Virus record (IMG/VR): IMGVR_UViG_3300046006_002386
Span: 1-22,619 of that record
DNA length: 22,619 nt
DNA from: a virus
Direction: 5' to 3' (one strand)
Position numbers and translations under genes: made by a program
In this document: in pieces, positions 2,382 through 14,253 of the stretch
How the letters are laid out: each line of letters starts with the position of its first letter
Numbering within the stretch: the first letter of the stretch is position 1
Notes under the pieces: generated by a model
The model's database searches: none
What the model saw: the letters and a program-made list of their open reading frames with translations, nothing else
Told to the model about the DNA's origin: nothing

Positions 2382-2810
2382 TTGACTTGGGTCTATAAAG
2401 ACTCTATAGTTAATGAACTACCTGATGATTGTATCGGTTTTGTATATTGCATTACCAATACAGTTTCAGGGCGCCAATACATTGGCAAAAAATTAGCAAA
2501 ATTTAGTAAAACGACCTACAAGACTGTAAAGTTGAAGAACGGCACTAAGAAGAAAAAGAAAATTAGAAGTAAAATTGACAGCGACTGGCAGGAATATTAC
2601 GGGTCCAGCGTTGAACTATCTAAAGACATAGACGCTTTAGGCAAAGATAAATTCACAAGAGAAATTCTCTATTATTGTAAAAGTAAAGCAGAAACATCTT
2701 ACGTTGAGGCCCGCGAACAATTCGACCGCAAAGTATTAGAATCCGATGAATACTATAACGGACATATACAAGTCCGTGTACATGGCTCACACATTAAAAC
2801 AAAAATTTAA
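2382..2810 (+). CDS. GIY-YIG family endonuclease
   Basis: A 142-residue protein that starts with TTG directly after the previous stop (TAATTG); no ATG lies upstream of the conserved domain. The GIY-YIG core is at the N-terminus: FVY at residues 20-22 and YIG at 33-35, followed by a very basic stretch of Lys/Arg and Thr, then SDWQEYYGSS and FTREILYYC. A Glu-containing helix (SYVEAREQFD) follows, where this family carries its metal-binding glutamate. Stand-alone GIY-YIG genes are common in T4-like phages and include the Seg homing nucleases; others are resident genes of unknown role. I see no separate DNA-binding domain beyond the basic loop. The gene ends at the border of a structured non-coding region, which raises a homing association, though no intron ends were recognised. 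Confidence 0.88.
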   Translation: MTWVYKDSIVNELPDDCIGFVYCITNTVSGRQYIGKKLAKFSKTTYKTVKLKNGTKKKKKIRSKIDSDWQEYYGSSVELSKDIDALGKDKFTREILYYCKSKAETSYVEAREQFDRKVLESDEYYNGHIQVRVHGSHIKTKI

Positions 2811-3250
2811 GGCACCTTAAGCGGTACACAAGCAAGCGTCGGCTAACATCGGACGCCCTGAACCTGGACATCGTGTCACAGGGATGGAAATCTCTTGCCG
2901 CTAAGAGTACTCAACCACTATCCTTTACAGGACGTAAATCGCAAATTCGCCGCGGTATGGTTGTTTGAAGTAAGAAAAAAGGCAAAAGGAGGGGAGAAAA
3001 ACCCCAAGTATATGAATATGTTAGTGTATATTCATATGCTGCCGTTGTATAAAGACGGAGCTCGTGGTACCGATCAACCGCCACTGTAACTGCTCTAACA
3101 CTAAGTGATACATGTTCGACTCAGATAATGTTCAATTTCTTTGCCCAGCTTGGGCAAAGTGTGACTGAACGATCTAGATAATATTTAATCGCCCATGATA
3201 TAAAAATTGCTTCAAGCGATAGCGCAGAAGCAAGTGAGCGTCTGCTCACT
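2811..3250 (+). ncRNA. Candidate structured non-coding RNA region
   Basis: About 440 bases with no convincing gene between the GIY-YIG stop and a late promoter. The region holds many inverted repeats: GCGTC 2836-2840/GACGC 2852-2856; CCTG 2857-2860/CAGG 2879-2882 enclosing GACA/TGTC; CTCTT 2892-2896/AAGAG 2903-2907; AACCA 2913-2917/TGGTT 2958-2962 enclosing TTTAC/GTAAA; GGGG 2991-2994/CCCC 3002-3005; a 13-pair stem 3007-3019/3028-3040 with one G-T pair; CCGT 3042-3045/ACGG 3055-3058; nested AGAT/ATCT, GTTCA/TGAAC and CTTTGCCCA/TGGGCAAAG across 3123-3175; TTGCTTC/GAAGCAA with inner GCG/CGC across 3207-3233; and AGTGAGC/GCTCACT 3233-3250. GCGGT 2821-2825 could pair with ACCGC 3077-3081 to close a domain. 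It matches no tRNA, tmRNA, RNase P or intron core I could recall. Strand, ends and function are inferred. Confidence 0.45.
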
Positions 3251-3257
3251 ATAAATA
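3250..3257 (+). promoter_or_regulatory. T4-type late promoter
   Basis: Exact TATAAATA, the T4 late promoter octamer read by the phage sigma factor gp55. In T4 the start site is about six bases past the octamer, so transcription would begin near 3263, giving a 21-base leader for the gene at 3284. A perfect 7-pair hairpin (3233-3250) abuts the octamer and shares its first T. Confidence 0.8.
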
Positions 3258-3283
3258 TATAAACTGTTGTCAGGAATAACATA

Positions 3284-4021
3284 ATGAAATTCAATGATCT
3301 ATTAAATGAAACTCAAGTTAATGAGTTAGGAATACTTAAAAATATTGGCGGAGCTCTGAATAAAATGCGATCCAATAGGCAAGCATCAAAGTTGCAATCA
3401 AAGGGTGCGTCTCATGCAGGGCGTATTGCTGATAATATTAGAGCTGAGTTTCAACAGATGGTAGGGGGTGGCATGGAACCTACATACCAAAACTTAATTG
3501 ACTTCTTAGAAGATTTAGGTCTAAGTGATTTGGACACTATTCCTAATCCAGCAGGCGGTGCACCAAGTGTAGCAACTCCTCCTGAAAGAATAGATCCTAC
3601 TATGGAAGCAGTAGCAGGTGGATTGAATAACATGCAAATTGATAAGATTATCAAAGATGCAGTTAGAAAAAATTATGCTAAAATAGTGGCTGCACAACAG
3701 GGCAGGAGTCGTCAACAAGTTGAACCTACTGGTGATGCTACTCCGGAACCAGCAGCGCCTGAGCAACCAGCAGCGCCTGAGCAACCAGCAGCGCCTGCTC
3801 CACAAGCTACTACTAAACCTGTTGCGCCGCCGACAATGACTGGTCCGACTCCTACAACATTAGATGGATTTAAGAAAATGTATTCAACTTTAGATCCAAA
3901 AGAACGGGCAGCATTACGTGATCAGTTGGATATAATTGACGATCAAGACAGACTAGCTAGCGGAACAAACGAAAGTATCAGTCAACCGTTTGTTAGCAAG
4001 TTCCTGGGTATTGCACTATAA
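3284..4021 (+). CDS. Pro/Ala-rich putative virion or internal head protein
   Basis: A 245-residue protein with no family I can name. The N-terminus (MKFNDLLNETQVNELGILKN) is a short amphipathic segment followed by a basic helix; next come a Gly-rich linker, a helical part around residues 110-140, and a low-complexity Pro/Ala/Gln/Thr region of about 145-195 containing three PAAPEQ-type repeats. It ends in a charged helix (DPKERAALRDQLDIIDDQ) and a hydrophobic tail. The exact late promoter upstream shows late expression, which fits a virion protein. The N-terminus holds two L/I-x-E-like sites (LNE; VNE-L) of the kind gp21 cuts, so an internal head protein with a capsid-targeting peptide is one possibility. 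The stop codon directly touches the stop of the minus-strand gene. Confidence 0.75.
   Translation: MKFNDLLNETQVNELGILKNIGGALNKMRSNRQASKLQSKGASHAGRIADNIRAEFQQMVGGGMEPTYQNLIDFLEDLGLSDLDTIPNPAGGAPSVATPPERIDPTMEAVAGGLNNMQIDKIIKDAVRKNYAKIVAAQQGRSRQQVEPTGDATPEPAAPEQPAAPEQPAAPAPQATTKPVAPPTMTGPTPTTLDGFKKMYSTLDPKERAALRDQLDIIDDQDRLASGTNESISQPFVSKFLGIAL
3749..3802 (+). repeat. Three 18-bp tandem repeats encoding PAAPEQ
   Basis: CCAGCAGCGCCTGAGCAA occurs twice in a row (3749-3766, 3767-3784). A third copy diverges at its end (3785-3802, reading PAAPAP). The repeat is in frame and extends the flexible Pro/Ala linker of the gene at 3284, so copy number may vary between related phages through slippage. Confidence 0.85.
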
Positions 4022-13414: not shown

Positions 13415-13437
13415 AAAACGCCCTTCGGGGCGTTTTC
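13415..13437 (+). terminator. Strong intrinsic terminator after gp23
   Basis: AAAACGCCC and GGGCGTTTT form a perfect 9-pair stem closed by a TTCG tetraloop (C-UUCG-G in RNA), with the T-rich arm serving as the U tract. The flanking A and T runs would let it work in both directions. Confidence 0.9.
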
Positions 13438-13438
13438 T

Positions 13439-13490
13439 GTTAAATAAAGAGTCTAGATTATTATGCGGCACCCACCGCGTAGGGCCTAGA
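13439..13490 (+). promoter_or_regulatory. Weak late-promoter-like octamer and structured leader
   Basis: GTTAAATA at 13439-13446 keeps the TAAATA core; the predicted start is near 13452. TCTAG 13452-13456 then pairs with CTAGA 13486-13490 and encloses GCGG/CCGC, so the transcript would begin with a stem-loop. The Shine-Dalgarno AAGGAG (13504-13509) is left free. The preceding terminator means the gene at 13516 needs a promoter here. Confidence 0.45.
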
Positions 13491-13515
13491 ACGCTCATAA
13501 CTCAAGGAGAAACAA

Positions 13516-14253
13516 ATGGGACGTCCTATTAATAAGAAATTTTTTGGTAACACCAACAGTCCATATGACGATGGACAAACTGGCGGTGCAACAGGTGTAG
13601 GCGGCGAAGGCCTTTCTACAGTTGCAATTGTTACTACAGGTTCGGGTTACAGCACCTCAACTACAGTAACATGGGTTGCAGGCACACCAGGTATTCCGGG
13701 CGGTACAGTGGCTTCTGGTACAGTAACAGTATCTGGCGCTGGCGCCCCTACGGCGTACAATGTACTAACTGCTGGTAGTGGTTATATAACTACTGCAACA
13801 TCATTAACATTTACACCTAATCCTACAACCACAGGAACATTTGCAATCAGTTTAACTACTGGCCGTCAAAACGCTCTAAACTTTACAGCGTGGGTTCCAA
13901 CAGCATCTAACGGTACAGTTAATTCTGGTGGTAGTGCAGTAATTGGTGACATTGTTAAACAACAAGGTACAAGTCGTTACTATGTTAAGACTGTTCAAGG
14001 GTACGGCGTATGTAAGTTAGTAGCTGACACTGCATCTATTGGTACAATGGTTCTTGAAGCTAGCGATGCTAACGGTAACACATATTATGTAACTCGTTTA
14101 GCATCTAGAAAAGCAAGATTAACTCAGAAAACACAAAACGGTGCCAGTGCATGGGTTTATGCAACTAACGATTTAGCAAAATGGACACTTGCTGCTGCCA
14201 ATGGCACAGACAAGACTCTTGTCACTACTACAGTTAGCATTAGCAACGTTTAA
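13516..14253 (+). CDS. Virion structural protein after gp23
   Basis: A 245-residue protein starting MGRPINKKFFGNTNS, a start I recall in small structural proteins near the capsid genes of cyanophage-type T4-like phages. The middle is Gly/Thr-rich beta-type sequence with two related units (TTGSGYSTSTTVTW and TAGSGYITTATSLTF, about 50 residues apart). The second half has VIGDIVKQQGTSRYYVKT, then ASRKARLTQKTQ and AWVYA, a compact beta domain. No enzyme motif is seen. It is an independent unit, with terminators on both sides and AAGGAG at 13504, which suggests high-level expression. Capsid decoration, neck or fibre-linked protein are all possible. Confidence 0.8.
   Translation: MGRPINKKFFGNTNSPYDDGQTGGATGVGGEGLSTVAIVTTGSGYSTSTTVTWVAGTPGIPGGTVASGTVTVSGAGAPTAYNVLTAGSGYITTATSLTFTPNPTTTGTFAISLTTGRQNALNFTAWVPTASNGTVNSGGSAVIGDIVKQQGTSRYYVKTVQGYGVCKLVADTASIGTMVLEASDANGNTYYVTRLASRKARLTQKTQNGASAWVYATNDLAKWTLAAANGTDKTLVTTTVSISNV

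Follow-up and report, generated by a model that had tools for sequence, protein, structure and literature searches.

A conserved RNA of about 430 nt downstream of a GIY-YIG gene in a T4-like phage record, with a 3' module that also occurs in chromosomal mobile elements

The window, that is, the whole stretch of DNA analysed, is a viral record of 22,619 bases with T4-like gene content: a gp46-like SbcC, an Hc1-like protein, a SegE-type GIY-YIG nuclease, the portal, the head protease and gp23. Between the stop of the GIY-YIG gene (2810) and the start of the next gene (3284) lies a gene-free gap of 473 nt (2811-3283), by far the largest intergenic gap of the window, where the others are mostly shorter than 40 nt. 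The Hc1-like protein (2184-2381, 65 aa, histone H1-like, PF07432) is encoded between gp46 and the GIY-YIG gene and was also identified in 69 related loci. Annotations of T4-like phage genomes widely label the GIY-YIG family itself (PF19835, PHROG 447) 'NAD synthetase', apparently an error that has been passed on from record to record. The features of the locus are as follows.

2382-2810, + strand: SegE-type GIY-YIG gene (PF19835, Pfam E 1.1e-32), directly upstream of the RNA
2820-3250, + strand: predicted whole RNA, about 430 nt, covariation unbroken over 2820-3104 and over 3118-3250
2820-2825 with 2897-2902, + strand: PK1, its 3' strand in the loop of P3; the pair 2821/2901 is A-U in 18, G-C in 12 and U-A in 6 homologues; its 5' strand lies outside the Rfam model
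2831-2833/2842-2844, + strand: PK0, a short pseudoknot, within 2831-2856 together with P1
2836-2840/2852-2856, + strand: P1, within 2831-2856 together with PK0
2863-2869/2875-2882, + strand: P2, covariation in 44 homologues
2892-2895/2904-2907, + strand: P3, covariation in 44 homologues
2909-2916/2959-2966, + strand: P4, enclosing P4b and P5; region 99.6-100% paired, with double changes
2939-2942/2952-2955, + strand: P5, inside P4
2991-3005, + strand: P6 hairpin, 79% paired, double changes in 4 of 4 pairs, with alignment gaps here
3008-3039, + strand: P7, 12 pairs, 92-95% paired
3021-3027 (loop of P7) with 3098-3104, + strand: PK2, 97.7% paired, double changes in 7 of 7 pairs
3044-3104, + strand: central pseudoknotted core, with PK3, P8, P9 and the 3' strand of PK2
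3044-3048/3074-3078, + strand: PK3, part of the core
3058-3061/3092-3095, + strand: P8, core
3064-3067/3081-3084, + strand: P9, core
3118-3129, + strand: S1, first copy of a duplicated element, x-ACUC-AGAUAAU
3139-3159, + strand: P11, hairpin between S1 and S2, 91.9% paired, with a conserved GUGUGAC after it
3171-3182, + strand: S2, second copy of the element, x-AUCU-AGAUAAU
3208-3232, + strand: terminal hairpin A, of the type N6-GAGCG-NN-AGCGA-N6, present in chromosomal copies too
3233-3250, + strand: terminal hairpin B, 98.2% paired, double changes in 6 of 7 pairs
3250-3257, + strand: T4-type late promoter TATAAATA of the next gene, behind the RNA
3284-4021, + strand: next gene, not part of the RNA, 245 aa, N-terminus MKFNDLLNE

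A preliminary description made from the letters of the window had taken 2811-3250 to be non-coding, strongly folded and more GC-rich than its surroundings, and the comparison with homologues, shuffled sequences and the window agrees on all three points. Frame-changing indels in the homologues break both candidate open stretches of the gap, the open frame being absent in 38 and 42 of 44 homologues respectively; with no frame conserved, a coding gene is ruled out. The fold of 2811-3283 has a z of -3.31 against shuffles, none of 100 folding equally well, and 2967-3250 alone reaches -4.13 with none of 200. The gap has a GC fraction of 0.448 and the window one of 0.386, which places the gap at the 93rd percentile. 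The inferred helices contain 204 G.U cells and 52 A.C cells, an excess which identifies the + strand as the RNA.

The 5' part of the gap is a member of a known family. By cmscan, 2831-2966 is Rfam RF01718, Polynucleobacter-1, with 113.9 bits (gathering threshold 37), an E of 2.1e-24 and positions 1-141 of the 141 of the model, thus a full-length member. Its consensus helices P1-P5 are paired in 90-100% of cells with double changes in most helices (44 homologues), the two helices of 2831-2856 being 91.7% and 99.5% paired, with double changes. The literature search on RF01718 found a single paper, of 2010 (PMC2864571), where it was considered probably an RNA, 'probably' cis-regulatory and of uncertain status as a switch, occurring in Burkholderiales and in fresh water and estuaries. 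For the remainder, 2967-3250, no Rfam match above chance was obtained, and models of group I and II introns and other ribozymes gave no match at E up to 1 within 2700-3400. The label of undescribed RNA therefore fails for 2831-2966 and stands for the other two thirds and for all pseudoknots. A weak resemblance of P6-P7 (2978-3049) to Methylobacterium-1, RF01712, was rejected as chance-level: it scores 20.3 bits, half the gathering threshold, with an E of 0.47, and is absent from 14 homologues.

The region 2820-3250 almost certainly encodes a single long conserved RNA. The structure was written on 44 diverse homologues; its 18 helices have 81 pairs in total, and it contains four pseudoknots. 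Pairing is seen in 93.7% of its cells, against 35-43% when the partners are slid. Double changes, the compensatory evidence by which the preliminary description proposed to judge its stems, occur at 61 of the 81 pairs. Cells with double changes number 517, compared with 147 after shuffling and 46-77 after sliding, and the covariation score of 0.450 falls to 0.174 on shuffling and to 0.055-0.072 on sliding, one of these controls ignoring phylogeny. Since these sequences also served in part to derive the structure, the slid control is flattering; 61 double-changed pairs would be hard to reach in that way. A covariance model of 3041-3183 (R1) reaches relatives down to 67 bits, and PK1 is also legible in chromosomal copies as CUACUG/CAGUAG. 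Among the options raised earlier that of a large phage RNA was right, and the stems are parts of a single molecule. The 13-pair stem seen at 3007-3040 is recovered as P7, and the two adjacent hairpins that close the region both covary, so that the end point at 3250 was placed correctly. The long-range closure of GCGGT at 2821 with ACCGC at 3077 finds no support: 2820-2825 covaries with 2897-2902 in PK1, and 3074-3078 with 3044-3048 in PK3. RF01718 is only the 5' third of an RNA of about 430 nt, its model stopping at 141 positions and omitting PK1 with its upstream strand, and the boundary of the Rfam family is too narrow. What was in 2010 a probable cis-regulatory motif becomes one domain of a widespread four-pseudoknot RNA.

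The 3' module, 3118-3250, is 89.4% paired and scores 0.454 against 0.173 and 0.05-0.08 in the controls. A nested three-helix arm had been drawn at 3123-3175; its inner hairpin, P11, covaries, and its outer helices are unsupported because their strands form a direct repeat, S1 and S2. Across 196 class-I RNAs the two heptamers have matching residues at their variable positions in 99% of cases. At the two most variable ones, position y is identical in 99% against 50% after permutation and position z in 99% against 68%; mixed y residues occur in one RNA. The heptamer differs by lineage (RGAURAU, GAAUAAU, GCAUAAU, ACAUGAA, AGCGAAA, AACAAAA and others), the two matching copies changing together as a strong evolutionary rule. 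Gene conversion is disfavoured by the fixed difference of context, ACUC for S1 and AUCU for S2, and simple pairing of S1 with S2 because it would favour mixed residues, which hardly ever occur. No column inside the RNA fits a third strand covarying or pairing with either copy, and neither AGAUAAU in the rest of the window nor copies of the repeat in the rest of the chromosomal elements are enriched.

The matching suggests either two copies recognising one partner or an unusual parallel contact. The latter reading, in which S1 and S2 would join in a parallel or some other non-canonical duplex and their identity would be structural, with no external partner, agrees with a coupling that is identity in parallel register and with the rarity of mixed y, even though antiparallel pairing would gain from one mixed form; ornate RNAs do contain unusual helices, such as an A-A helix (PMC12286853). 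The elements contain C and U besides A and G, which argues against it, and it is considered unlikely.

The distribution of the module was followed with R2, a covariance model of 3118-3250 for which class-I phage RNAs alone served as training set. It finds held-out class-II phage RNAs at 47-65 bits, chromosomal RNAs of RF01718 type mostly at 35-57 bits (L352 at 23), and chromosomal RNAs that lack RF01718 and have a different 5' domain (L383-L385) at 35-42 bits; unrelated control loci gave no match, and the very divergent copy L346 scores just 15.8 bits. Of the 70 GIY-YIG loci whose sequence extends far enough, 58 have the RNA described here, 8 have another long folded gap in that place and 4 (L046, L064, L076 and L078) have neither. 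The second class follows the GIY-YIG gene in L005 (4427-4900), L006, L007, L016, L025, L028, L035 and L037, has the repeat ACAUGAA and no Rfam match in the three loci scanned, and shares only the 3' module with class I. The third class, in the chromosomal elements L383 (4440-4760), L384 and L385, has the module without RF01718, its S1 and S2 sharing CCAAUC at altered spacing. The 5' domain is thus exchangeable over a constant 3' module, which occurs without RF01718 as well. In G441, G085, G163, G392 and other genomes of the genus presumed to be Polynucleobacter, the R2 match is confined to the two terminal hairpins (model positions about 57-133), perhaps in further RNA classes.

The viral loci were gathered by a search with the GIY-YIG protein and with two RNA patterns and comprise at least 200 distinct loci with the RNA; they are metagenomic, and their counts are lower bounds biased to relatives of this window. 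Their gene order is gp46, GIY-YIG, RNA, a variable gene and a minus-strand hub gene. In L016 and L028 a small additional gene (about 90 aa) lies between the GIY-YIG gene and the RNA, and also in L165, L180 and L240, where the gap is longer. In six isolate phages with GIY-YIG relatives RF01718 and R1 were not found and R2 gave chance-level scores only; none of the three RNA classes has DNA similarity to isolate phages, and a 17-mer scan of genome contigs returned 16 matches, all apparently chance and without the RNA. Upstream of the RNA in the phage there is one sigma-70-like site, below chance expectation; with no evident promoter there, the RNA may be processed from the gp46/GIY-YIG transcript.

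The bacterial set comprises 186 genomes, mostly of about 2 Mb, from a genus reached from a Burkholderiaceae genome and presumably Polynucleobacter. RF01718 was identified in 20 of them and the R2 module in 39. The RNAs are found in elements which, in the regions read, carry a large integrase, a small tyrosine recombinase, a clamp-loader-like ATPase, DUF6641 and a protein of 124-135 aa; a 264-aa marker protein of the elements is present in 58 of the 186 genomes. An integrase together with a few conserved genes, recurring from genome to genome, is what would be expected of phage satellites, and by gene content the elements fit a satellite-like nature. A conserved TAAATA stands before 24 of 25 chromosomal copies, which apparently have a late promoter of their own. 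In the IMG/VR contigs neither the chromosomal version of the RNA, searched as a pattern, nor the 264-aa marker was found. A common RNA module thus links T4-like phages to mobile elements of this bacterial genus.

The neighbours bear on what the RNA belongs to. That it is a homing-ribozyme remnant or a nuclease guide, functionally part of the upstream GIY-YIG gene, is suggested by the position of that gene, which is the next one upstream of the RNA in 184 of 185 viral loci. This tie, which the preliminary description had put forward in the form of a mobile-ribozyme remnant, is positional only. The chromosomal copies have no GIY-YIG neighbour (PF19835 occurs in 1 of the 186 genomes), GIY-YIG relatives stand without the RNA in the six isolate phages and in four fetched viral loci, no intron family of Rfam matches, and the position of the RNA is fixed, not mobile, among these phages. 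The reading is highly improbable.

A cis-regulatory leader in the 5' UTR of the next gene, controlling that gene, would agree with the published judgement on RF01718 (PMC2864571) and with the + strand gene that follows the RNA in the window and in many loci. Against it, the late promoter often lies between the two at a fixed distance: the exact TATAAATA was identified in 80 of the 198 loci and, with few exceptions, stands 90-129 nt past the 3' anchor and thus between RNA and next gene. The first downstream proteins form several unrelated clusters; the 245-aa product of 3284-4021 has no family match and whole-protein relatives in only seven viral contigs. Chromosomal copies precede varying genes, and in L348 a gene on the opposite strand follows. 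The nuclease-free chromosomal copies, the intervening promoter and the unrelated next genes argue jointly against leader, ribozyme remnant and nuclease guide; the RNA is probably not a leader of the next gene, and the cis-regulatory reading as such retains a slight chance. The very different first downstream proteins, including that of 3284-4021, have in common an N-terminus MK(I/V)xE(L/I), like a capsid-targeting leader, and a similar start (MKMYEI, MKVKEV) is seen in the protein of 124-135 aa from the chromosomal elements.

The explanation preferred here, with chances a little better than even as a whole, is a stand-alone noncoding RNA of about 430 nt that acts late, recognises a partner through S1 and S2 and lets satellites share a late process of their helper. 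The exchangeable 5' domain, here RF01718, and the pseudoknotted core would form a scaffold, and the 3' module would display two identical strands of 7-8 nt beside the fixed ACUC/AUCU context. Made late in infection, the RNA would act in trans or on its own DNA rather than as a leader. The partner of S1 and S2 would be a single one specific to the lineage, be it a dimeric protein or a strand of nucleic acid that is read twice; recognition through the duplicated heptamer is proposed only tentatively. The satellite-like elements would have a version of their own since they would rely on a late process of a T4-like helper that the phage RNA also serves, for which genome processing, packaging and late-gene control are candidates. 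Equally speculative is the broader idea of a new modular RNA class common to T4-like phages and satellites, in which the constant 3' module would carry the two identical strands as a duplicated, re-programmable guide or address tag and the 5' scaffold would be swapped between lineages, RF01718 being one such domain.

A role in replication or packaging is rather unlikely. Here the RNA would be a structured primer, like ColE1 RNA II, or a genome-recognition RNA marking phage and satellite DNA, with S1 and S2 pairing with DNA of the same genome. Its occurrence in both phages and integrated elements with a clamp-loader-like ATPase and integrases, the lineage-specific yet internally matched S1 and S2, and the apparent late promoter of the chromosomal copies are consistent with such a role; no DNA partner site was found in the elements or in the window, and T4 packaging is not known to require an RNA.

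The RNA appears to work like no characterised system and resembles in kind GOLLD, ROOL and the RNAs of ICP1 and its satellite PLE. With GOLLD and ROOL (PMC12286853) it shares length, a phage origin, an elaborate structure and a function not assigned, and with GOLLD a conserved 3' and a variable 5' region; however, it matches neither Rfam model, measures about 430 nt against about 650-800 nt or more, and has the duplicated matching element, and the window contains no tRNA. A further mark of GOLLD and ROOL is a multimeric RNA-only cage. ICP1, with a noncoding RNA of about 800 nt, and PLE, with one of its own, offer abundant noncoding RNAs in a large phage and its satellite; phage and host are different (PMC7567579). 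As far as that description goes the two RNAs are not presented as mutually related, whereas here phage and element have a module in common.

In the Rfam scan of the whole window only RF01718 and RF02980 reach threshold. The latter, freshwater-2 (cis-regulatory), was identified at 13443-13518 with 51.2 bits against a threshold of 49.9; the match runs up to the start codon of the gene that follows gp23 and is preceded by a strong GC hairpin at about 13418-13435.
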